Shown in pieces: positions 7,704-23,821 of a stretch of 64,000 nt of DNA. Source of the stretch: an uncultured Oscillospiraceae bacterium. GTDB taxonomy: Bacteria > Bacillota > Clostridia > Oscillospirales > Oscillospiraceae. The position numbers and the translations under genes were made by a program. The DNA lies in the NCBI GenBank assembly GCA_944385095.1, contig CALWVS010000002.1:62001-126000 (forward strand), given 5' to 3'. The notes under the pieces were generated by a model. That model was not told where the DNA came from. It worked only from the letters and a program-made list of their open reading frames with translations, and made no database searches. The first letter of the stretch is position 1; each line of letters begins with the position of its first letter.

Positions 7704-9011
7704 TGGATCTGCCTGCAATGGAATTAAAATATTCAAAACAAACCAGTTATCATTTAAGGACACACTGAGACTTCCACCATACTTTTGGGCAGTGTATCGA
7801 ATGCTTTTGATTCCATAGCCGTGATAATCCTGGTCCTGTTTGGTTGTAATGGGAACACCATCTTCAAAAGAGAGTGCATCTTGACAATAATTTTCACAGT
7901 GAATAATCAAAAAGTTCTTTTGTGAAAAAACTTCCAAATGGATGAGGCGAAGCTCTTTTTCTGCAATTTTCAGCTCACACTCAATAGCATTATCCAGAGC
8001 ATTGCCGAACAAGGTGCAAATATCCATCACATCCATAAAATCAAGCAGATGTCCATTTGCCACACAAGTCAGTTTAATTTTGTGTTTGGCACAGTAAAGG
8101 CTTTTTCCTGTCAGCACAGTATCAAGAACGGGGTTTCCTGTTTTGTTTTGTGCCTCATAGTGCTGAATTTCCTGCTCCATCTGGTCCAAAAAGGCAGCCC
8201 GTTTGGTTGGGTCTTTCTCTGCACGGAGGATGGCAATCTGGTGTTTTAAATCATGATATTTTCGGTTGATAAGGTCAATACTCTCCCGGGATTGGCGGTA
8301 TTGGACATATTGGTTTTGAAGGATGCTCTTAATCGCATCCAATTCCCGTTTTGTATGGAGTTCGGCACGTTGTACATGGTAAGCATACAGAATGACCACA
8401 CCAGATAAGTCAACCAGAGTCCGTATGGTAAAGATTTCCCGGATAAACGGGCTGCTAAATGGGGTATTGGTGGTAATAAAACTTAGGTTGCTAATGAGAA
8501 AAACAGCAGCTCCCATTACCACAGCGGACCATAGTTCATTCTGGGAGATCACCAGCCTAGTTTGATAGGAAGTGACATGTTTTTCCAATCGATACATGCC
8601 ATAGAATACAATTCCATACACAAAAAACAGGTAGAGCAGAGAGAGCACTGGATTATTCTGCTCCACTTGATAGGCAGTATAATAATAGAGTTGCCACTCT
8701 AAAGAGGCAGCAAATTCAGCCAGAAGGAAGGCACGAACGGTACAGTAAGCAGCACTTTTCCAATCCAGTTGGGAGCAAAGCAGGATGAGAATAAACATGC
8801 CTGCGATAGCAATGCTCATGGCAGGCATCCAGAATACAATGGAAAGGGTATCTGTGGATATGAGCCAGACACTTTGCAACAAAAGAAACAGCACCAAAAT
8901 TCCCGCAAGTTGAACACCATGGAACCTTCTGCGATATTGGAACAGATAGACAAGACAGGCAATCCACTCAGCCAATGCAGTAAATAGGCGAGGAATATTC
9001 TCATACATCAT
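7683..9011 (-). CDS. GHKL-domain sensor histidine kinase (AgrC/LytS-like)
   Basis: 442 residues. The N-terminal 200 residues hold about six hydrophobic segments (a sensor without a large extracellular loop). A helical linker and the phospho-acceptor box RKYHDLKHQIA follow, then the GHKL ATPase domain (LFGNALDNAIE as N box, YHGYGIKSIRYTAQKYGG as G box). This layout is typical of peptide- or envelope-sensing kinases paired with LytTR regulators. The ATG at 9011 overlaps the stop of the regulator gene as ATGA; the frame upstream of that is shadow of the regulator gene. Signal unknown. The GH3 operon just downstream is a possible but unproven target. Confidence 0.9.
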   Translation of the reverse strand: MMYENIPRLFTALAEWIACLVYLFQYRRRFHGVQLAGILVLFLLLQSVWLISTDTLSIVFWMPAMSIAIAGMFILILLCSQLDWKSAAYCTVRAFLLAEFAASLEWQLYYYTAYQVEQNNPVLSLLYLFFVYGIVFYGMYRLEKHVTSYQTRLVISQNELWSAVVMGAAVFLISNLSFITTNTPFSSPFIREIFTIRTLVDLSGVVILYAYHVQRAELHTKRELDAIKSILQNQYVQYRQSRESIDLINRKYHDLKHQIAILRAEKDPTKRAAFLDQMEQEIQHYEAQNKTGNPVLDTVLTGKSLYCAKHKIKLTCVANGHLLDFMDVMDICTLFGNALDNAIECELKIAEKELRLIHLEVFSQKNFLIIHCENYCQDALSFEDGVPITTKQDQDYHGYGIKSIRYTAQKYGGSLSVSLNDNWFVLNILIPLQADPEVGISH

Positions 9012-13634: not shown

Positions 13635-14063
13635 TTAGTATTTCTTTACCAGATATTCGATGGCTTTTCGATACCCTTCAAAGCCAAGACCAATGAAAGA
13701 AGCTTCACACGCCATACCAGCATAAGAAACCTGACGGAATGGCTCACGTTGTCTAACATCAGAGAGATGAACCTCAACACAGGGCAATGCAACCGCCTTT
13801 AGAGCATCTAAAATTGCAACACTGGTGTGGGTATAAGCCGCTGGATTGATGACAATACCATCCATTTTCCCATATGCCCACTGAATTTTATCTACAATCG
13901 TCCCTTCATGATTGGATTGAAATACCTCAACTTGGATTCCACATTCCGCAGCTACATGGTGGATAAATCCTTCCAGATCAGCATAGGTCTGACTGCCATA
14001 AATGTCTGGCTCTCGAATTCCCAGCATATTTAGGTTGGGACCATTGATGACAAGCAATCTCAT
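13635..14063 (-). CDS. aroQ: 3-dehydroquinate dehydratase, type II
   Basis: 142 residues, typical of the dodecameric type II enzyme that converts 3-dehydroquinate to 3-dehydroshikimate (shikimate step 3). Motifs: NGPNLNMLG with the flexible catalytic loop after it, QSNHEG, NPAAYTHTSVAI and EVHLSDVRQREPFR. The ATG overlaps the stop of the aroE/K fusion gene by 4 bases. Last gene of the aromatic operon. Confidence 0.96.
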   Translation of the reverse strand: MRLLVINGPNLNMLGIREPDIYGSQTYADLEGFIHHVAAECGIQVEVFQSNHEGTIVDKIQWAYGKMDGIVINPAAYTHTSVAILDALKAVALPCVEVHLSDVRQREPFRQVSYAGMACEASFIGLGFEGYRKAIEYLVKKY

Positions 14064-15289
14064 GGATGGAGCCTCCCAACAATTTTGGCAGCCACATAGA
14101 TTGGCTTGGTGTTGTTCTCTACAGTAAGCTGTGCCAGAGACTCATAGAGGGGCGCACGCTGGGCATACAACTTTTCTAAAGGCACAGACTGAGAGATGGG
14201 GCGATCTTCTGTCGCAAGCTGTGAAAGGTCACGTTTTAGGTAGACTACAAAGGAATTTTGCAAAATAGGGTCGTGATTTTCCGGTTTTGTTACAATGCCG
14301 CCACCACAGGCGATAATTTGCCCAGAACGTTTGGCAATATCACAAAGTACCTGATGTTCACACTCCCGAAACCCATCTTCCCCCTTTTGGTCGAACAGCT
14401 CTGGAATGGAACAGCCACACATTTCCTCAATTTTTTTGTCCAAATCTACAAAGGGACGGTGTAAAAAGTCTGCTACAGCCTCACCCACAGCACTTTTTCC
14501 ACAGCCGGGCATGCCAATGAGGATAATATTTTTTGTTTCCCATTCAATCAGACGTGTAATTTCATCAATCCGCTGAGGTGGGTAAGCCACATTGAAAAAA
14601 CGTTCAGATGCGGCTTTTGCCTGTGCAACCAGCATAGAAAGCCCATTGATATAGGGGATTCCCAATTTTTTTGCGTCCAGCAAAAGCTGTGTGGCAGCAG
14701 GGTTATAGATAATATCAATGACCCCTTCACAGGCTGGGAATTGCGCTAGACAAACAGGAGCAACGCCTACATTTGGGTACATGCCGACAGGTGTAGTGTT
14801 TACAATCACCTGTGCATCAGCATGCAGATGTAAATTTTCGTAGTTATCTTTTCCGGTACGGGAAATCACCACAATTTCTCCTGCCTGTAAATCGGTCAAT
14901 ACCGTTTTTACGGTGAGGGAGGAGCCACCACTGCCCAAAATCAATACTTTTTTTCCTGTAATGGAAATGCCAGACTTTTGCACCAGATATAAAAATCCGT
15001 CGTAATCTGTATTATCTCCATATAAGGAACCATCTGGACGGCGAATAATGGTATTGACACTGCCAATGCGTTCTGCAATAGGAGAGAGCTGGGTACAGTA
15101 GGGAATGACTGTTTTTTTGTAGGGGACCGTTACATTGATGCCTTGAAAGGTACCATTGGATAGAAAATTACCTACTTCATCTGGTGGGAGAGGGATGAGC
15201 TGATAGTTGGGGTTGTCCAACAGGCGGTGGATGAGAGGAGAAAAACTGTGAGACAGTTTTTCTCCCAGCAGTCCATAGGTTGCATTCAT
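14060..15289 (-). CDS. aroE/aroK fusion: Fused shikimate dehydrogenase / shikimate kinase
   Basis: 409 residues covering shikimate steps 4 and 5 in one chain. The N-terminal half (about 1-250) is AroE: KLSHSFSP, NVTVPYKK with the catalytic lysine near residue 58, DNTDYDG, nucleotide loop GSGGSS, and VNTTPVGM. The C-terminal half (about 255-409) is AroK: P-loop GMPGCGKS at about 259-266, DLDKKIEE, FRECE, CGGGIV and the lid arginine in TEDRPIS. No stop or frameshift lies between the halves. The ATG at 15289 has GAGGTG 6 bases upstream. It follows pheA closely and is coupled to aroQ. Confidence 0.94.
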   Translation of the reverse strand: MNATYGLLGEKLSHSFSPLIHRLLDNPNYQLIPLPPDEVGNFLSNGTFQGINVTVPYKKTVIPYCTQLSPIAERIGSVNTIIRRPDGSLYGDNTDYDGFLYLVQKSGISITGKKVLILGSGGSSLTVKTVLTDLQAGEIVVISRTGKDNYENLHLHADAQVIVNTTPVGMYPNVGVAPVCLAQFPACEGVIDIIYNPAATQLLLDAKKLGIPYINGLSMLVAQAKAASERFFNVAYPPQRIDEITRLIEWETKNIILIGMPGCGKSAVGEAVADFLHRPFVDLDKKIEEMCGCSIPELFDQKGEDGFRECEHQVLCDIAKRSGQIIACGGGIVTKPENHDPILQNSFVVYLKRDLSQLATEDRPISQSVPLEKLYAQRAPLYESLAQLTVENNTKPIYVAAKIVGRLHP

Positions 15290-15305
15290 TGTAATCACCT
15301 CAAAA

Positions 15306-16457
15306 TTAACAAATCATCTCACTATAGCTGCCCAAATATCTGAAGTGTTCACTTTCTGCCTCTAAATCTCGGAACAGAGCCTGCAATTCTGGAGCATAGA
15401 CAGGGCATTCCAAATCAAAGTAGAAACGGAATTCAAACTCCTGATCAGGAATGGGACGGCTCTCCAATTTGCGCAGATTGATGCCAAGGGCGTAGAATTT
15501 GGAGAGAATGTGGTAGAGGGTACCAGGCTTATGAGGCAGGGTCATCATGAGGGAAGTGCGGTCTGCGCCTGGATAGATTTCAGGTTGCTTGGAAATGCAG
15601 ATGAACCGAGTGTAGTTGTTGTCCTGATCCTGTACATTTGCTTCCAAAATATTGAGACCATATAGTTCACCACAGAAACGGGAAGAAAGAGCAGCCAGAT
15701 CGGTGCGGTCAGACTCAGCCACCATGCGGGCAGCCACAGCAGTGTTTTCTACAACTGTAATTTTAACATCTTTTAATCCAGATAGATAGTAGGAACTTTG
15801 TCTCAAAGCCTGCTCATGAGAATAAATTTCACGGATGTCTTCTTTTTTCACACCGTGGTGTGCCATAAGATTGTGATTTACTTTCAAACGGGCAGAACGT
15901 ACAATATAAAAATTGTGCTTTGCCATCAGGTCATAAATCACATTCACAGAACCAGCAGAGCTATTTTCCACAGGAAGCACACCATATTGACACATGCCAG
16001 TCTCTACCGCACGAAATACATGTTCAAAGGTGCTGAAATACAGAATATTTGGGGACTTGAACATGCTGTCACAGGCAATCTGGGAATAGGCACCCTCAAT
16101 GCCCTGACAGGCAACCGAGGCACGTTGTGGGAACAGGTTTTGTGTGTTGGTCACAGCCTGAGAAATCACATCCCAAATAGGAGATGGAGTTTGGTTACAT
16201 AAATTTTGATAGGAGCGACCAGCCGCAAAAATACTGCGATAGACAGATTGAACATAGTCAGAAAATTCATCCCCTGCCTGCTGGGCAACACGGGAAAGGA
16301 GGGCACGTTCACGACCGGCATCTAAGGTGGGCATCTGGTGCGCTTTTTTAAAGGCAGCAATATCTTTTGATACCCCCATACGTTCTACAAACAGATCAAC
16401 CATCTGCTTGTCAATGGAGTCAATGTGTTCACGCAGGCGATTCAGTTCTTCATTCAT
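15306..16457 (-). CDS. pheA: Chorismate mutase / prephenate dehydratase (P-protein)
   Basis: 383 residues, bifunctional enzyme of phenylalanine synthesis. The chorismate mutase domain is at about 1-85 (LREHIDSIDKQMVDLFVERM). Prephenate dehydratase follows at about 110-290 (GIEGAYSQIACDSMF, GVLPVENSSAGSV, and YTRFICIS, whose Thr-Arg-Phe is the catalytic motif). A C-terminal ACT domain (about 300-375, PHKPGTLYHILSKF, LRKLESRP) normally binds phenylalanine for feedback control. GGAGG lies upstream of the ATG. Fused N-terminal mutase plus ACT is the proteobacterial-style P-protein layout, less usual in Bacillus relatives. Confidence 0.95.
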   Translation of the reverse strand: MNEELNRLREHIDSIDKQMVDLFVERMGVSKDIAAFKKAHQMPTLDAGRERALLSRVAQQAGDEFSDYVQSVYRSIFAAGRSYQNLCNQTPSPIWDVISQAVTNTQNLFPQRASVACQGIEGAYSQIACDSMFKSPNILYFSTFEHVFRAVETGMCQYGVLPVENSSAGSVNVIYDLMAKHNFYIVRSARLKVNHNLMAHHGVKKEDIREIYSHEQALRQSSYYLSGLKDVKITVVENTAVAARMVAESDRTDLAALSSRFCGELYGLNILEANVQDQDNNYTRFICISKQPEIYPGADRTSLMMTLPHKPGTLYHILSKFYALGINLRKLESRPIPDQEFEFRFYFDLECPVYAPELQALFRDLEAESEHFRYLGSYSEMIC

Positions 16458-16475: not shown

Positions 16476-17582
16476 TCAATTTATTTTGTTGATTTGGTCT
16501 GTATTGCGGTCAAGTAGAGCATCCAGCAGCACAATGGCAACAGCTGCTTCTACCACAGGAACTGCACGGGGCACAATACAGGGGTCGTGACGTCCCACAA
16601 CATTCAGTGGAATGTTCTTTTGTTGGGACAGGCTGATGCTCTGTTGTTCTTTGGAAATGGATGGGGTTGGTTTAAAAGCTGCACGCAACAGAAGGGGCAT
16701 TCCATTGGAAATTCCACCCAAAATACCGCCGCTATGATTGGTGCGGGTGCGAACTGTGGTGCCATCCAGATAGAATGGGTCGTTGTTTTGAGAACCAAAT
16801 AATGTTGCGCTTTCAAATCCTGCCCCAAATTCTACCCCCTTTACCGCTGGAATAGAAAACAGCATAGAGGCAAGACGACTTTCCAAGCCTTCAAACATGG
16901 GATTTCCCAGTCCCACAGGCAGCCCTGTTGCCATACATTCCACCACACCACCCACAGAATCTCCTTGATTGCGGGCAGACTCGATGATAGACTTCATGTC
17001 AGTTTCTGTTTTTTTGTTGATGACAGGAAAAGAAGATGATTTGAGATGTACAAAGGTGCTGTCAGGTTCCCCCAGAGGGCAAAAAGGGGTATCAGACACG
17101 GAGCCAACAGAGGCAATGTGTGCCCCGATTTCAATTCCGTAGCGGGACAGAATTTGAAGACAAATACCACCTGCAATACACAGTGGAGCAGTCAATCTGC
17201 CAGAAAAATGACCGCCACCGGCTACATCCTGATACCCTCTGTATTTGACATGGGCAGTATAATCTGCATGAGCAGGTCTAGGACAGTCTTTTAATTTGGA
17301 GTAATCCTGAGAGCGTGTGTTTGTGTTGTGAATGATTGCGGTCAGCGGTGCCCCACAGGTGGTGTGGTCCACCATGCCACACAAAAACTCAGGTAAGTCA
17401 GCCTCTTTACGAGGGGTGGAAAGAGGGCTGTTGCCGGGAGCTCGACGTTTCAGAAAGAGAGAGAGAGCATCCAAATCAATGGATTCACCAGCGGGTAGCC
17501 CATCTATGGTAACACCAATGGCAGCAGAATGGGATTGCCCAAAAATAGAAATGTGAATATGTTTACCCCAATAAGAAGCCAT
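16476..17582 (-). CDS. aroC: Chorismate synthase
   Basis: 368 residues, the usual length. It makes chorismate from EPSP and needs reduced FMN. Family signatures: GQSHSAAIGVTIDGLPAG, KRRAPG, RPAHADYT...KYRGYQDVAGGGHFSGR, and the C-terminal RHDPCIVPRAVPVVEAAVA. Its first codons overlap the aroA end by 20 bases, so the two are translationally coupled. GGGAGG precedes the ATG. Confidence 0.97.
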   Translation of the reverse strand: MASYWGKHIHISIFGQSHSAAIGVTIDGLPAGESIDLDALSLFLKRRAPGNSPLSTPRKEADLPEFLCGMVDHTTCGAPLTAIIHNTNTRSQDYSKLKDCPRPAHADYTAHVKYRGYQDVAGGGHFSGRLTAPLCIAGGICLQILSRYGIEIGAHIASVGSVSDTPFCPLGEPDSTFVHLKSSSFPVINKKTETDMKSIIESARNQGDSVGGVVECMATGLPVGLGNPMFEGLESRLASMLFSIPAVKGVEFGAGFESATLFGSQNNDPFYLDGTTVRTRTNHSGGILGGISNGMPLLLRAAFKPTPSISKEQQSISLSQQKNIPLNVVGRHDPCIVPRAVPVVEAAVAIVLLDALLDRNTDQINKIN

Positions 17583-18789
17583 CTAAAATCCCTCCCAGCT
17601 GTTGATAATGTGCCCAGAAATTTGGATAGGATTTTTTGACACACTCTGCCCCTGTCAAAGTGATGGGCTGTTGGCATGCTGTGGCAGCAATAGCAGCCAT
17701 CATGGCAATCCGGTGGTCATTGCAACAATCTATGGTGACACCACCAGAAAGATGACTGACACCTTGAATGGTCAGTGAATCTGTCTGTTCCTCTACATGC
17801 CCACCAAGAGCATTTAAAGTAATCGCAACGGTATGGAGACGGTCACTTTCTTTCATGCGCAATCTGGCTGCGTTGACAAGATGGGTGGTACCAGAGCGCA
17901 GTGCAGCCATCAACGCCAGAGGGGGGACAAGGTCGGGACATTGAGATACATCCAGTTCTACGGTGGTGTTAGGTCTTGCCAGTGTCCAATAGTACTGTGC
18001 CACCTGTCTGTCTCCCTGTTTGGAGGTGGTGTTTAGTCCCTGTAAGGTCACTTGATTGTCTAAAAAATTGGCTGCATACCAGAATCCAGCCTGAGACCAA
18101 TCCCCTTCTACGGTCTGATTCTGTGCCTGATAGGTTTGATTGCCTTTGATTTTAAAATGACCAGTGGAAGATTCCTCAATCTCAATCCCAAAGGTAGAAA
18201 GGGTGTCCAAGGTCAAATCTACATAGCCACGGGACTCCAATGCACTGGTCAAAATCAGTTCAGAATCTCCATTCAAAAGAGGAAGCGCATACAAAAGACC
18301 AGTGACAAATTGACTGGATACATCCCCAGGCAGAGAGTAGGAACCAGAGGTTAATTGCCCCTGTAGTGTGAGGATATCCTGTTCCTGCTGCCACAAAATT
18401 CCCTTATTTTCAAATAAGATTTGATAAGGGGTTTGTGGACGCTTCATCAACCGTCCTCGACCGGTAAAAGAGCCACCACTGCACAGAGCCAATGCAATGG
18501 GAATGAAAAAACGCAGTGTAGAACCAGATTCCCCACAATCAAAGTGTGGTTTGGAAGTGTAGCTTTGGTGAGGAGACAGCGTGACACAGTCAGAACCCTG
18601 TTGGAATGGAATGCCCATAGCACTTAAACAGGAGAGAGTAGCAGAAATGTCCTCTGAAAAAGACAGATTGGAAATGGTACAGGTTTTTTGAGACAACCCT
18701 GCTGCCAAAAGAAGACGGTGCGCCTGACTTTTGCTGGGTGGGATGGTAAGAGTACCAGACAATTTGTGGGGATGAATCGTCAAATCCAA
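17563..18789 (-). CDS. aroA: 3-phosphoshikimate 1-carboxyvinyltransferase (EPSP synthase)
   Basis: 408 residues. Joins shikimate 3-phosphate with phosphoenolpyruvate (shikimate step 6). Motifs: IPPSKSQAHRLLLAAGLS at the N-terminus, DCGESGSTLRFFIPIALAL near residue 85, RLRMKESDRL near 310 and DHRIAMMAAIAA near 350. The loop DCGESGSTLRF has alanine-free GESGST where class I enzymes have LGNAGTA, pointing to a class II-like EPSP synthase. A TTG at 18789 is preferred as start (AGGAGG 7 bases upstream); the GTG at 18798 is part of that ribosome-binding site. aroB ends inside the same site. Confidence 0.93.
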   Translation of the reverse strand: MDLTIHPHKLSGTLTIPPSKSQAHRLLLAAGLSQKTCTISNLSFSEDISATLSCLSAMGIPFQQGSDCVTLSPHQSYTSKPHFDCGESGSTLRFFIPIALALCSGGSFTGRGRLMKRPQTPYQILFENKGILWQQEQDILTLQGQLTSGSYSLPGDVSSQFVTGLLYALPLLNGDSELILTSALESRGYVDLTLDTLSTFGIEIEESSTGHFKIKGNQTYQAQNQTVEGDWSQAGFWYAANFLDNQVTLQGLNTTSKQGDRQVAQYYWTLARPNTTVELDVSQCPDLVPPLALMAALRSGTTHLVNAARLRMKESDRLHTVAITLNALGGHVEEQTDSLTIQGVSHLSGGVTIDCCNDHRIAMMAAIAATACQQPITLTGAECVKKSYPNFWAHYQQLGGILDGFLLG

Positions 18790-18794
18790 AGGGA

Positions 18795-19877
18795 TCACCT
18801 CCTGAATGTTGGAGCCAGAAGCTCCAAAAGTTGTTCTTTTTTCATAGGATGGGGAACTGCATGTCCCAACTGCTCTAGTAAAATTAAGGTAATCTGGTCA
18901 CCAGAACGTTTTTTATCCAATCCCACCGCTTCTTCCAGAGTAGACCAGGGGCAGGGAATTTGTGTGGGTAGATGGTACTGCTCCAAAATAGAAGTAACCA
19001 TCGGTTTGATTTCCTTTGGAGTAACACCCAAAGCAATGCCCAAATCAATGGCACAACACATACCCGCTGCAACCCCTTGACCGTGGGTATAGGTCACATA
19101 GTGACCAGCCAATTCAAAGGCATGACCAATGGTGTGCCCAAAATTTAAGGTCATACGCAGTCCAGTATCTCGCTCATCCTGTAAAACCACCTGTCTTTTT
19201 TGGTCACAACAGGTATAAATGACTTCCTCAATGTGAGCCATCACACCAGAACGACCGCCACACTGAGCCAAAAAAGAAAAGAAATCTGCATTTCCAATGC
19301 ACCCATATTTAATCACTTCTGCCATGCCATCGGAGAATGTGGCATCTGACAGGGTTTGCAATACATTGGGGTCGATAAATACTGCTTTAGGCTGCCAGAA
19401 TGCGCCAGCCAGATTTTTGCCAGCCTGTAAGTCCACCGCCACCTTGCCGCCAACAGAGGAATCTACTTGGGAGAGCAGTGTAGTGGGAATTTGAATGTAA
19501 GCCACGCCGCGTAAAATGGTAGCTGCTGCAAAACCAGCCAAATCTCCCACAACACCACCGCCCAACGCAATCACAGCATCTGTGCGGGTGAGCCCCAAAG
19601 ACATCATTTCTTCCCAAAGTGCCACCAGATGTTCTGTGGATTTGGAGGACTCTCCAGCAGGAACAACTGAGATATGGACAGCAAAGCCTGCATTTTGGAG
19701 AGATGTGTTGACCTGTGCTCCATAGAGGTCATAGACAGTCTGGTCAGTCACAACAAACAGCCGCTGTGCTTTGGGTAGCAGCTCTTTACAGCGCAGACCA
19801 ACAGAAGAAAGCAATCCTCGCTCTATTTCAATCTCATAGGAGCGACCTGGCAGGTCAACTGTCAATGTCTTTTTCAT
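18795..19877 (-). CDS. aroB: 3-dehydroquinate synthase
   Basis: 360 residues. NAD- and metal-dependent enzyme for shikimate step 2. Motifs: GGGVVGDLAGFAAATILRG, IPTTLLSQVDSSVGGKVAVD, EVIKYG, and the metal histidines in NFGHTIGHAFE and THGQGVAAGM. ATG at 19877 follows AAAGGTGG and overlaps the tyrA stop by 4 bases. The TGA stop lies within the aroA Shine-Dalgarno. Confidence 0.96.
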   Translation of the reverse strand: MKKTLTVDLPGRSYEIEIERGLLSSVGLRCKELLPKAQRLFVVTDQTVYDLYGAQVNTSLQNAGFAVHISVVPAGESSKSTEHLVALWEEMMSLGLTRTDAVIALGGGVVGDLAGFAAATILRGVAYIQIPTTLLSQVDSSVGGKVAVDLQAGKNLAGAFWQPKAVFIDPNVLQTLSDATFSDGMAEVIKYGCIGNADFFSFLAQCGGRSGVMAHIEEVIYTCCDQKRQVVLQDERDTGLRMTLNFGHTIGHAFELAGHYVTYTHGQGVAAGMCCAIDLGIALGVTPKEIKPMVTSILEQYHLPTQIPCPWSTLEEAVGLDKKRSGDQITLILLEQLGHAVPHPMKKEQLLELLAPTFRR

Positions 19878-20707
19878 TCTGCATCCACCTTTTCTTTGCA
19901 AATTCGACCTTCAGCCAACAGGGTACACAGCCGGTCCCCATTGCCCTGTTCCAGCGCAGTGCGATATTCCTGCAAAGCACCAATCACCTGATCCAACTCT
20001 GTCAGAAGATAGTCCCGATTCTCCAAAAACAGGTCTGTCCACATGTGTTCATTGAGCCATGCCACTCTGGTTAAGTCCAAGTAACTGCCAGCAGAGTATC
20101 CCTTGTGCATTTGTGCACGGGGGCTTTTGACATAGGCATTGGATAGAATGTGGCACATCTGGGAGGTATAAGCAATCATTTCATCGTGATGCTCTGCTGT
20201 CGTCACGGTCAGATGGGCAAAACCGGCAGGAGCTAACATTTTTTTCACCCGATCCAGCAGCATAATGTCATCCCGATTTTGTGGAACAATGACCATAGGT
20301 GCACCCTGAAACAGGTCTGCCTTACTGTTGGCAAAGCCAGAATACTGTGTGCCTGCCATGGGATGACCACCTACAAATGTGAAACCATACTGTTCCGCAA
20401 GAGAAAAACCAACACGACAAATTTCACGTTTCACACCACAACAGTCCATGACTAAAGTGGTGGGGGAGATGTAGGGGGCAATTCGTTCCAGATAATCCAC
20501 GGAAATTTCTGGATAGAGGGCAATTAGGAGCAAGTCACAGGTAGAAATGGTGGTTTCATCCAAATCTCCACTGAGTGTGCCTTGCAGTTTAGCAAAATCC
20601 TGCACCACACGGTTGCCATCATAGCCATATACCGTTGCACCACTTTTTTCATAGGCTTTTGCAAGAGAACCACCAATGAGACCAAGTCCAGCTACGCCAA
20701 CAATCAT
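19874..20707 (-). CDS. tyrA: Prephenate dehydrogenase
   Basis: 277 residues. Oxidative decarboxylation of prephenate to 4-hydroxyphenylpyruvate for tyrosine. The NAD-binding loop GLGLIGGSLAKAYE is at the N-terminus, with DCCGVKREI and VGGHPMAGTQYSGF as the prephenate dehydrogenase signatures. There is no C-terminal ACT domain, unlike many Gram-positive TyrA proteins, so tyrosine feedback would have to act elsewhere, for example on the operon attenuator. AAGGAGG precedes the ATG at 20707. It lies 11 bases after aroF. Confidence 0.94.
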   Translation of the reverse strand: MIVGVAGLGLIGGSLAKAYEKSGATVYGYDGNRVVQDFAKLQGTLSGDLDETTISTCDLLLIALYPEISVDYLERIAPYISPTTLVMDCCGVKREICRVGFSLAEQYGFTFVGGHPMAGTQYSGFANSKADLFQGAPMVIVPQNRDDIMLLDRVKKMLAPAGFAHLTVTTAEHHDEMIAYTSQMCHILSNAYVKSPRAQMHKGYSAGSYLDLTRVAWLNEHMWTDLFLENRDYLLTELDQVIGALQEYRTALEQGNGDRLCTLLAEGRICKEKVDAE

Positions 20708-20718
20708 GGGATACCTCC

Positions 20719-21729
20719 TTACTGCTGAGGGCAAACAATGTTGCGAATCTGACGAACCGCCTCTGCCACATCTTCAAATTGTTCAGGGCGCAGAGACTGA
20801 GGACCGTCACACAGGGCACGGGCAGGGTCGTTGTGCACCTCAATAATCAGACCATCTGCCCCACAGGCAGCGGCAGCCAGTGCCATAGGCTTTACATAGC
20901 GGGCTACTCCTGTAGCGTGGCTGGGGTCAACCACAACAGGAAGGTGGGTTAATTCATGGAGCACTGTAACAGCAGATAAATCCAAAGTATTGCGTGTGGC
21001 AGTTTCAAAGGTACGAATGCCACGCTCACAGAGAATCACATTGCTATTGCCACCAGCCATTACATATTCTGCACTCATCAGCAGTTCCTTAATGGTATTG
21101 GCAAGACCACGCTTAATCAGAATAGGTTTTTGTGTTTTGCCCAGTTCCTTCAAAAGCTCAAAGTTCTGCATATTGCGTGCTCCAACCTGAATCACATCCA
21201 CGTCTTCAAAAAGGGGCAAATGGTTGGCGTTCATGATTTCTGTTACAATGGGAAGTCCAGTTTCACGCTTTGCTTCCAACAGCAAATCAATGCCATCTGC
21301 CTTCAGTCCCTGGAAGTCGTAGGGAGAAGTGCGGGGCTTGAATGCACCGCCACGCAGCATGGTAGCACCAGCAGCCTTTACACTTTTGGCAACAGTAATA
21401 ATTTGCTCACGACTCTCCACAGAGCAGGGACCAGCAATCATAGCAAAATGACCGCCGCCAATTTTTTCCTCACCGACTTCAATGATAGAATCCATAGGAT
21501 GGAATTTGCGGTTACTGCTTTTGTATGGCTCAGATACTCGCTTGACGCCATCTACAATATCCAGACTGGACAACAGCTCCTCATCCAGACGGCTGGTATC
21601 ACCAATGATGCCAATGATGGTAGCATAATCACCAGAGGAGATGTGGGTACGAAGGTTTTGAGATTCAATCCACTGAATTAAGTCACGAATGCGAGCCTCA
21701 CTGGCACTTTGTTTTAAAATGATAACCAT
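20719..21729 (-). CDS. aroF: 3-deoxy-7-phosphoheptulonate (DAHP) synthase
   Basis: 336 residues. First committed enzyme of aromatic synthesis (phosphoenolpyruvate plus erythrose 4-phosphate). The N-terminal about 70 residues form the ferredoxin-like regulatory domain of type I-beta enzymes (MVIILKQSASEARIRDLI). The barrel follows: IAGPCSVESREQI, RGGAFKPRTSPYDFQG, QVGARNMQNF, LIKRGLANTIKE, and VVDPSHATG. The ATG at 21729 has AAAGGAC upstream. First structural gene of the operon, directly behind the attenuator hairpin. Confidence 0.95.
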   Translation of the reverse strand: MVIILKQSASEARIRDLIQWIESQNLRTHISSGDYATIIGIIGDTSRLDEELLSSLDIVDGVKRVSEPYKSSNRKFHPMDSIIEVGEEKIGGGHFAMIAGPCSVESREQIITVAKSVKAAGATMLRGGAFKPRTSPYDFQGLKADGIDLLLEAKRETGLPIVTEIMNANHLPLFEDVDVIQVGARNMQNFELLKELGKTQKPILIKRGLANTIKELLMSAEYVMAGGNSNVILCERGIRTFETATRNTLDLSAVTVLHELTHLPVVVDPSHATGVARYVKPMALAAAACGADGLIIEVHNDPARALCDGPQSLRPEQFEDVAEAVRQIRNIVCPQQ

Positions 21730-21760: not shown

Positions 21761-21811
21761 ATAAAAATACAAAAGAGCCTGTGGTGAAGTGCTTCTTCAC
21801 CACAGGCTCTT
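21761..21811 (-). terminator. Attenuator terminator before aroF
   Basis: Perfect 17-bp arms at 21773-21789 and 21795-21811 with a 5-nt loop, followed on the minus strand by TTTTGTATTTTTAT. It lies between the leader-peptide stop and aroF, 30-80 bases before the start codon, so it would stop transcription ahead of the operon. The segment 21847-21860 in the leader can pair with the 5' arm as an antiterminator. Confidence 0.85.
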
Positions 21812-21831
21812 AACATCCCGTATCATTCCAG

Positions 21832-21942
21832 TTACACTGGGGAGGGAAGCCGATTCTGTGCAGCAGAAAACACTTCTACCTGTTTGACACTGAAGCCAAA
21901 AAAGTAAAAGTAGCTAAAAAAGAATGCTGCAAACAAATACAT
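21832..21942 (-). CDS. Phe/Tyr-rich leader peptide of the aromatic operon
   Basis: 36 codons from ATG at 21942 to TAA at 21832. The peptide starts MYLFAAFFFSYFYFFGF: 11 of residues 2-17 are Phe or Tyr (12 of all 36 residues), with no Trp. A good Shine-Dalgarno (GAGGAG, 8 bases upstream) and a promoter about 50 bases upstream support expression. The stop lies about 20 bases before the terminator hairpin, and codons 28-32 overlap the proposed antiterminator strand. Ribosome stalling at uncharged Phe or Tyr codons would free that strand and allow read-through. Function is inferred from architecture. Confidence 0.8.
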   Translation of the reverse strand: MYLFAAFFFSYFYFFGFSVKQVEVFSAAQNRLPSPV

Positions 21943-21984
21943 AATCGGAACTCCTCTCTTTACAGGAATAAAGTCTACGCCCCT

Positions 21985-22014
21985 ATGTTAGCACCAGAAA
22001 AGCCGTTCTGTCAA
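21985..22014 (-). promoter_or_regulatory. Promoter of the aromatic operon
   Basis: On the minus strand a perfect TTGACA (22009-22014) and TAACAT (21985-21990) with an 18-base spacer. Transcription would start near 21978, about 35 bases before the leader-peptide ATG. Confidence 0.72.
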
Positions 22015-22080: not shown

Positions 22081-22115
22081 AAAACTGGGCACTGCCAGAA
22101 ACAGTGCCCAGTTTT
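22081..22115 (-). terminator. rho-independent terminator of rnj
   Basis: A 14-bp stem (AAAACTGGGCACTG/CAGTGCCCAGTTTT) with a 7-nt loop, then TTTTGTAATTTTTG on the minus strand. The rnj stop codon lies two bases before it, at 22117-22119. Confidence 0.88.
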
Positions 22116-22116
22116 C

Positions 22117-23775
22117 TTATACTTCCATAATAACCGGTAAAATCATGGGTGAACGTTTGGTTTTCTTATAGAGATAGCTGGAAAGTTCATTTTTGACAGA
22201 CTGTTTGATGGCTGACCAATCAGTAGCATAGCGGGCATCTACATTCATAATCCCATCCAATGCCACCTGACGCAGTTCTTCCATCAGACCTTCTGATTCC
22301 TTTACATACACAAAGCCACGGGTGATAATATCAGGACCGGAGACCAGTGCACCATCTTCACCAGACATGGATACTACAACTACCACCATACCATCCTGTG
22401 CCAGATGTCTGCGGTCACGCAGCACAACACTGCCCACATCTCCCACACCAGAGCCATCCACAAATACTTTACCTGCGGTAACAGTACCTGCCAGTTTACA
22501 GCCTTTGGCAGTAATTTCAATGACCCGACCAATGTCAGAAATAATGACATTGTTGGCGGGCATTCCCATATCACGGGCAAGTTTGGCATGAATTTGGAGC
22601 ATACGTTGTTCGCCATGGATCGGAATAAAGTATTTGGGTTTAATGAGGGCATGAATGATTTTCAGTTCGTCCTGGCAGGCGTGACCGGACACATGCAGGG
22701 CACGTTCCCGTTCATTGAGCACCTCAGCCCCTTTTCGATACAGTTCATTGATGACATTGCCAATGGAATTTTCATTGCCAGGAATGGCAGAGGCAGACAT
22801 AATAATGCGGTCTCCGGGCAAAATTTCCACCTGACGATGGGTAGAAAAAGCCATACGGGACAAAGCAGACATGGTTTCTCCCTGACTGCCAGTGGTAATA
22901 ATACAGACTTTATGCTTTGGCAGGGATTTAATCTGGTTTAAGTCCATCAGAATACCATCTGGGATGTTCATATAGCCCAGTTCTGTGGACACTTTCATGG
23001 CGTTTTCCATGGAACGACCAGTGACAGCCACCCGTCTGCCGTAGCGGGCAGCCACATCAATAATTTGCTGGAGGCGGTCTACATTGGAGGCAAAGGTAGT
23101 GACAATGATGCGCTCCTGACACCCCTTAAACAGTGCATCAAAAGAGGCTCCCACACTGCGTTCTGTGCGTGTGAAGCCAGGACGTTCCACATTGGTGGAG
23201 TCTGCCAGAAGAGCAAGAACCCCTTCATTTCCCAGTGCACCCAGACGGGCAAGGTCAATCATACCGCCCTGAATGGGGGTTGCATCAATTTTGAAGTCGC
23301 CGGTATGAATACACACACCCAATGGGCAGCGAATGGCAAAACCCACCGCATCTGCAATGGAGTGATTTACATGGATAAATTCAATGGAGAACTTTCCTAC
23401 TTTTACTACATCGCCCGCTTCACATGTAATCAATTTTGTTTTGGAAAGCAGACGATGCTCCTCTAATTTCAGTTGAATGAGACCTGCACTCATTCTTGTG
23501 GCATAAATGGGGGCATTGATGGAGCGCAGAACGTAGGGAAGTGCGCCAATATGGTCCTCATGTCCATGGGTAATAAAAATGCCACGGATTTTACTCTGAT
23601 TTTTGATGAGGTAACTTACATCTGGAATCACCACATCAATACCATACATATCATCGTCTGGAAATCCCATACCGCAGTCAATCACTACAATATCATTTCC
23701 ATATTCAAATACGGTAAGGTTTTTGCCAATCTCATTCAATCCACCTAAGGATATAATTTTTAGTTTTTCAGCCAT
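22117..23775 (-). CDS. rnj: Ribonuclease J
   Basis: About 552 residues. Metallo-beta-lactamase/beta-CASP RNase with 5'-3' exo- and endonuclease activity. The metal site is ITHGHEDHIGALPYVL near residue 70, with IHTGDFKID and the beta-CASP motifs ADSTN, TTFASNVDR and SGHACQDELKIIHALIKPKYFIPIHGE. A C-terminal RNase J domain ends in KRSPMILPVIMEV. ATG at 23775 begins MAEKLKIISLGGLNEIGKN, the normal N-terminus. Its Shine-Dalgarno AAGGAG is 13 bases away, and a TTG four codons upstream is too close, so the exact start is uncertain. A long structured leader precedes it. Confidence 0.93.
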   Translation of the reverse strand: MAEKLKIISLGGLNEIGKNLTVFEYGNDIVVIDCGMGFPDDDMYGIDVVIPDVSYLIKNQSKIRGIFITHGHEDHIGALPYVLRSINAPIYATRMSAGLIQLKLEEHRLLSKTKLITCEAGDVVKVGKFSIEFIHVNHSIADAVGFAIRCPLGVCIHTGDFKIDATPIQGGMIDLARLGALGNEGVLALLADSTNVERPGFTRTERSVGASFDALFKGCQERIIVTTFASNVDRLQQIIDVAARYGRRVAVTGRSMENAMKVSTELGYMNIPDGILMDLNQIKSLPKHKVCIITTGSQGETMSALSRMAFSTHRQVEILPGDRIIMSASAIPGNENSIGNVINELYRKGAEVLNERERALHVSGHACQDELKIIHALIKPKYFIPIHGEQRMLQIHAKLARDMGMPANNVIISDIGRVIEITAKGCKLAGTVTAGKVFVDGSGVGDVGSVVLRDRRHLAQDGMVVVVVSMSGEDGALVSGPDIITRGFVYVKESEGLMEELRQVALDGIMNVDARYATDWSAIKQSVKNELSSYLYKKTKRSPMILPVIMEV

Positions 23776-23821
23776 AATACCATTCAAACTCCTTTTTTAT
23801 CATTTTTAAGAGAGAACAGCC

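Follow-up and report, generated by a model that had tools for sequence, protein, structure and literature searches.

Background

In the pheA (PheL) and trp leaders of enterobacteria, a short peptide with many residues of the product amino acid is encoded together with alternative RNA segments and a terminator that stands before the first gene. T-box RNAs bind tRNA directly without translation, sense its charging and control a terminator before amino acid genes. According to the available text of two papers (PMC1262725, PMC2965389), peptide attenuators are usually regarded as the device of Proteobacteria and Actinobacteria, and T-boxes as that of Firmicutes. Peptide attenuators of Firmicutes for which descriptions are available in part are the his-leaders of his operons in 17 genomes (PMC9413887), those of hisS/hisZ in bacilli (PMC2965389; cited in PMC4833913) and the Leu-rich attenuator peptide of the Staphylococcus aureus ilv-leu operon, which has mutational support (PMC5794164). 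Upstream of aroF itself, the uORFC-13-1 motif comprises 24 sequences from Acholeplasma and the environment with at least one Phe residue, and the available portion of its description proposes attenuation and notes an extra base-paired element (PMC8632094).

The leader described here precedes an aromatic operon of an uncultured Oscillospiraceae bacterium, within a stretch of 64,000 nucleotides (the window) that was analysed as a whole. Like the pheA and trp leaders, the clostridial leader has a product-rich peptide, alternative segments and an intrinsic terminator; unlike them, its peptide is rich in both Phe and Tyr, its antiterminator includes the terminator loop, it precedes shikimate and Phe/Tyr genes together, and it belongs to another phylum. 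Whole-Rfam scans gave no sequence match to the enterobacterial leader families at gathering score. The T-box (RF00230) and the leader are both tRNA-charging sensors found before aroF, the T-box being absent at the operon of the window. As far as the partly available descriptions go, the leader would resemble the his-leaders in being a classical peptide attenuator in Firmicutes, where T-boxes serve elsewhere, and S. aureus ilv-leu in being a peptide attenuator of a Firmicute amino acid operon, but those respond to histidine and to leucine, and the latter belongs to Bacilli. The nearest match among those listed in the literature search is uORFC-13-1, which has a uORF with a U-run coding for Phe directly before a terminator and upstream of aroF; the comparison is one of descriptions only, and the available text on that motif names neither Tyr codons nor Clostridia (PMC8632094). 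The literature matches listed, which covered few subscription papers, included no Phe/Tyr leader attenuator for a clostridial aromatic operon. Lopatovskaya et al. (2010) and Panina et al. (2003) may contain related predictions. The mechanism is of a known kind, the family is apparently new and unnamed, and its spread in Clostridia and proposed exchange with the T-box are undescribed in the literature searched.

The leader and the genes that follow it

The leader is a minus-strand feature located between rnjA (22117-23787) and the first of eight minus-strand genes (aroF-tyrA-aroB-aroA-aroC-pheA-aroEK-aroQ) that are separated by short gaps or overlap (Table 1) and, from their spacing and common strand, probably form one operon. 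No trp genes occur among the eight. The ACT domain match of pheA is slightly below the Pfam cut-off (26.4 versus 27 bits). Judged from its sequence, the locus has the features of a classical attenuator, namely a Shine-Dalgarno sequence and start codon, a run of end-product codons (11 Phe/Tyr and no Trp among residues 2-17) and a terminator before the first gene. These counts and the presence of the promoter, Shine-Dalgarno sequence, 36-codon frame and 17-bp terminator with its U-rich tail agree with the first-pass annotation of this DNA, which had proposed a classical attenuator with a Phe/Tyr leader peptide, a proposal that both the anatomy and the relatives support. A promoter scan of the whole region found three sites where 2.2 were expected, which is not significant; the promoter call is supported not by its scan score but because TTGACA and a TAxxAT-like -10 hexamer were found again at the matching place in 18 aligned leaders. 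The region at 22081-22115, at the end of rnjA and adjoining the leader promoter upstream, forms a strong hairpin with a terminator score on both strands.

With the whole library of Rfam 15, no match was found in the window at gathering score, T-box RF00230 included, and a relaxed scan of the site gave five sub-threshold matches, the lowest E-value (0.052) being that of isrC on the other strand. Control by a T-box or another element known to Rfam was therefore rejected for this site; the operon has no T-box match, though T-boxes occur elsewhere in the genome.

Table 1. Coordinates in the window of the leader features and of the aromatic genes
Feature	Position	Strand	Remarks
Promoter-like site	21985..22014	-	TTGACA 22014-22009; TAACAT 21990-21985; 18-nt spacer; TG before -10
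Leader Shine-Dalgarno sequence AGAGAGGAG	21951..21959	-	
Leader peptide ORF MYLFAAFFFSYFYFFGFSVKQVEVFSAAQNRLPSPV	21832..21942	-	36 codons; stop codon 21834-21832
Segment 1	21904..21933	-	UUUGCAGC (21933-21926) and UACUUUUAC (21912-21904), Phe/Ala/Tyr codons
Segment 2	21847..21879	-	GUAGAAGUG (21879-21871) pairs with segment 1
Segment 2, inner antiterminator strand GUGUUUUCUGCUGCA	21873-21859	-	conserved; codons 24-28
Segment 2, outer antiterminator strand GGCUU	21851-21847	-	
Possible Shine-Dalgarno mask CGGCUUCCCUCC	21841..21852	-	window duplex with 21959-21951, p 0.057
Segment 3 (terminator 5' arm, 21811-21795, and loop)	21789..21811	-	21804-21789 pairs with inner strand of segment 2
Intrinsic terminator (3:4)	21773..21811	-	17 bp, 5-nt loop; U-rich tail 21772-21763; covaries among relatives
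aroF, 3-deoxy-7-phosphoheptulonate synthase	20719..21729	-	first gene; DAHP synthase model matches
tyrA, prephenate dehydrogenase	19874..20734	-	
aroB, 3-dehydroquinate synthase	18795..19877	-	open frame listed from 19901
aroA, 3-phosphoshikimate 1-carboxyvinyltransferase	17563..18798	-	
aroC, chorismate synthase	16476..17582	-	
pheA, chorismate mutase and prephenate dehydratase	15306..16457	-	
aroE-aroK fusion, shikimate dehydrogenase and shikimate kinase	14060..15298	-	
aroQ, type II 3-dehydroquinate dehydratase	13635..14063	-	last gene

Alternative RNA structures and the proposed mechanism

Close relatives have all four classical segments, which can form a 1:2 hairpin, a 2:3 antiterminator and the 3:4 terminator. 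Alignment A1 holds 21 close leaders: 18 of the genus, together with L020, L080 and L092. Its coding region contains two almost invariant stretches, synonymous positions included, and two Val codons of segment 2 (GUA and GUG) have an unvarying third base in all 21. The 1:2 pairing joins UUUGCRGC and UACUUUUAC to GUAAAAGUG and GCUGCAAA, with 97.5% of cells paired. The 2:3 pairing joins GUGyUUUUyUGCUGCA to UGCGGUGAAAAACAC in the 5' arm and loop of the terminator, with 94.7% paired compared to 33.5-65.9% when slid by one to three columns, although the structure was drawn from L005, an A1 member, which favours the drawn register over the slid ones. The 3:4 terminator is 98.5% paired and covaries, its measures being reached by 0-3 of 500 shuffles. 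No pair of 1:2 or 2:3 changed on both sides in A1, and shuffles were not exceeded, because both pairings hardly vary. In a second clade of the genus, the architecture is kept with different letters (GGUUUGGCUG pairing with CGGCCGAAC), and an outer pairing of GUGGGC with ACCCGC is separated from the inner one by an A-rich bulge.

The first-pass annotation had drawn the antiterminator from 21860-21847, its downstream portion. Those pairs exist (-9.0 kcal/mol for the blocks alone) and are right for the window, but the description is incomplete, since the conserved inner strand (-10.0 kcal/mol alone) also pairs, with the 5' arm and loop together. The best joint duplex of the window (-15.7 kcal/mol) combines the CACA:UGUG and GGCUU blocks with GUG and UUUUC paired to the loop side. 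Absent from the same description was the 1:2 hairpin between the Phe/Tyr codons and segment 2. A ribosome at the stop codon, which had been proposed to cover the antiterminator, could touch the outer strand but, from the positions, would stand downstream of the inner strand; the latter would be covered as the ribosome passes, or partly recaptured by 1:2.

The leader is thus very probably, on the evidence of these sequences, a classical ribosome-mediated transcription attenuator, with charged tRNA-Phe and tRNA-Tyr as its signals and the eight aromatic genes under its control. The basis of this assignment lies in the anatomy, the conservation and the complementarity of the alternative structures in relatives, as read from sequence; a single transcript, translation of the leader, stalling, coupling and a response to Phe/Tyr are predicted. 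A ribosome would translate the Phe/Tyr-rich peptide while RNA polymerase makes the leader. When Phe and Tyr are plentiful, the ribosome would clear codons 2-17 and cover segment 2, which segment 1 could recapture behind the passing ribosome; with segment 2 covered or recaptured, segment 3 would pair with segment 4 and transcription would end before aroF. If charged tRNA-Phe or tRNA-Tyr is scarce, the ribosome would stall in the codon run with segment 1 hidden, segment 2 would pair with the 5' arm and loop of the terminator, the terminator would form too late, and the operon would be read. Such a mechanism would work only where translation follows closely on transcription, and for some Firmicutes this coupling is disputed.

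The peptide is strongly hydrophobic and much of its sequence is common to close relatives, as would suit a functional small hydrophobic protein (e.g. a membrane peptide) followed by a terminator that merely lowers read-through. Across the order, however, mostly the Phe/Tyr run is kept while the remainder of the peptide and its length (16-42 residues among 127 leaders) vary, the fixed synonymous positions of segment 2 track the RNA pairing, and the ORF ends near the terminator (median 35 nt), so that a small protein is very improbable as the function of the frame. The KVKV-FAAN tail that follows the run and is conserved in close relatives could point to a TnaC-like arrest of the nascent peptide by free Phe/Tyr or another small molecule, in place of a stall for want of charged tRNA. 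This tail overlaps segment 2, so RNA pairing explains its conservation, and tails differ in other clades; moreover, arrest of this kind would presumably open the operon when Phe/Tyr is abundant, which is the wrong sign for biosynthesis, and it is given an equally slim chance.

Recurrence of the leader upstream of aroF

Recurrence of the proposed attenuator was assessed at 150 aroF loci, ranked by aroF similarity. The search set of 149 genomes (own genome, genus, family and order), in which aroF was matched in 109, was supplemented with the 80 best of 588 confirmed stretches in genome contigs, so that 70 loci came from the genome set and 80 from contigs; near-duplicates inside the set are the window's own locus and the pairs L017/L079 and L129/L130. 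The leader test called for an ORF of 10-60 codons preceded by a Shine-Dalgarno sequence, with at least five Phe/Tyr in 12 codons, and a terminator before aroF. It was passed by 127 of the 150 loci (65/70 from the genome set and 62/80 from the contig set), representing 126 distinct leaders; the peptide and hairpin of the first-pass annotation thus recur before aroF in related genomes, and the aromatic codons are conserved. By comparison, of 1329 ORF starts belonging to other genes in the contig set, five passed the test, and one of the five (L125) opens an aromatic operon whose first gene is pheA. At L125, the Phe/Tyr leader is at 7778, before the pheA gene (from 7969) that heads the aromatic genes, and none was found before aroF. 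Among the 23 loci that failed, L007 has a Phe/Tyr-rich leader lying over 500 nt upstream, the Phe/Tyr-rich frames of L103 and L152 lack a recognised Shine-Dalgarno sequence, and the upstream DNA of L123 is just 57 nt long. Records with the leader include those of the cultured relatives Sporobacter termitidis (L121), Yanshouia hominis (L113), Angelakisella massiliensis (L130) and Aminicella lysinilytica (L099).

A set of 97 non-redundant leaders, selected for Phe/Tyr, has 410 Phe and 350 Tyr codons in its codon runs, and six of the 97 contain Trp; the occurrence of both Phe and Tyr in the runs fits genes that make both amino acids. Phe codons are U-rich, and a Phe/Tyr-rich frame might arise by chance in U-rich DNA beside an ordinary terminator, the true regulator being a T-box, a riboswitch or a protein. 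Eight of 1500 dinucleotide shuffles of the upstream regions do pass the leader test, but the pass rate of the natural loci, the near parity of Tyr with Phe codons, and the finding of no Rfam family at gathering score, with sub-threshold matches only in the relaxed scan, make a chance frame hardly credible. That leader translation chiefly shields RNA or allows reinitiation at aroF, with no attenuation, can likewise be dismissed almost entirely: leader genes near structural genes may aid reinitiation according to the available text of PMC4833913, but the distance there peaks at about 10-16 bp, and here the leader stop is about 100 nt upstream of the aroF start with a strong terminator in between.

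Of the 64 genus genomes, 18 contain the segment 2 pattern GTARRAGTGNTTTYTGCTGCA exactly once each, always 118-420 nt upstream of aroF of the same genome, and the reversed control pattern has no match in the 64. Phe/Tyr-rich leaders were also seen at L097, L120 and L154, in records labelled Treponema or Lentisphaerae; either these bins are mislabelled, or operon and leader were transferred.

Pairing statistics and folding with ribosomes

Across the 97 non-redundant leaders, the letters vary and the pairing persists. The shuffle and swap tests covered just the 45 nt that follow the Phe/Tyr run. In the former, 1:2 was better than shuffles (p<=0.05) in 70 of the 97 leaders and 2:3 in 41. When partners were swapped among the 97 leaders, 1:2 gave -22.11 kcal/mol with its own partner versus -15.65 with those of other leaders, and 2:3 gave -14.66 versus -11.05 kcal/mol, an advantage to which differences in composition between genomes may contribute. 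An unrestricted duplex search of the whole post-run region reached p<=0.05 in 46 of 127 leaders; for the window it returned a composite pairing that differs from the conserved one and does no better than shuffles (p 0.33).

Ribosome states were folded using only the RNA downstream of the ribosome, as far as the end of the terminator loop. Segment 3 was held upstream at a mean over the 97 leaders of 0.71 with a stalled ribosome, about 0.31-0.32 with no ribosome and 0.34 with a ribosome nine codons past the run, and the stalled value exceeded the past-the-run value by >0.1 in 82 leaders, with the reverse in four. With the post-run region shuffled, the values were 0.47 stalled and 0.28 with no ribosome, and a stalling gain of >0.3, found in 65 of the 97 natural leaders, was also found in 277 of 970 shuffled ones. 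The change of RNA state that the first-pass annotation had suggested looking for by folding is seen in most of the 97 leaders; for the window's own leader, which has the segments, folding shows no clean switch. Its downstream-only fold gives 0.56 stalled and 0.49 with the ribosome nine codons past the run, and among 20 close leaders it alone shows no clear drop past the run. In simulation of its full leader, 2:3 formed at 0.11-0.33 for stalls at codons 4-17, at 0.09 for codon 20 and at 0 from codon 25, the terminator winning in every state of the full-length fold.

Distribution in Clostridia and proposed exchange with T-boxes

For a class-wide sample, 148 genomes were drawn evenly, aroF was matched in 108, and 109 loci were taken from 102 genomes (one each and a second copy for seven), leaving out the own genome (counted among the 150 loci above), G102, G180, G181, G283, G287 and further second copies. 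The leader was found at 54 of the 109 loci and in 53 of the 102 genomes, so the arrangement, which the first-pass annotation had called rarely described for complete shikimate operons in Clostridia, is common. Rfam models run on all 55 leader-negative loci gave nine T-boxes that exceed the cut-off and are oriented like aroF (L202, L214, L240, L242, L245, L246, L247, L250 and L254), and none among 20 of the 54 leader-positive loci. With a leader at 54 of 109 loci and a T-box at nine of the remaining 55, one gene in one class is thus served by two different tRNA-charging sensors. A second type of leader in the class has GYYFSAGYF-like motifs and often CUCAU-containing terminators (L191, L201, L206, L209-L211, L219, L221, L224-L226, L228 and L232).

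The own genome has 12 T-box matches, seven of them over the cut-off; one below the cut-off (C2:149116) is on the contig of the window, outside the window. The genes after eight of the 12 include asnB, leuA, ilvB and pheS (NCBIfam matches over the curated cut-off), a fifth that is TrpX-like but below the NCBIfam cut-off, and three named from their reading frames (valS, ileS and glyS). The element before pheS (L078; C40:5464-5675, minus strand) is T-box-like, scoring 84.8 bits where the Rfam cut-off is 93. In this bacterium, Phe seems to be sensed through a T-box at pheS and through a peptide at aroF.

The evidence leans modestly toward a class-wide and probably old family of Phe/Tyr attenuators at the aromatic operon of Clostridia, exchanging with the T-box in evolution and having a Shine-Dalgarno mask as a side feature. 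If this is true, many Clostridia would couple transcription and translation tightly enough for the position of the ribosome to decide termination. Coupling of transcription and translation in Clostridia is debated, and because the device needs a ribosome close to RNA polymerase, it would be a natural reporter for coupling in this class. With a peptide attenuator before aroF in about half of the class sample and a T-box in some others, the presence of two sensors means that a sensor swap can be studied on one gene.

Possible masking of the Shine-Dalgarno sequence

RNA beyond segment 2 may, mainly in close relatives, mask the Shine-Dalgarno sequence of the leader, in which case later ribosomes could not reopen the switch; the sequences are suggestive in this respect. 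Masking by CU-rich RNA after segment 2 reached p<=0.05 in 21 of 97 leaders, with a median p of 0.28. In many close relatives, a stretch that pairs with the Shine-Dalgarno sequence (GGAGCC with GGCUCC, and variants) lies 40-47 nt after the run.
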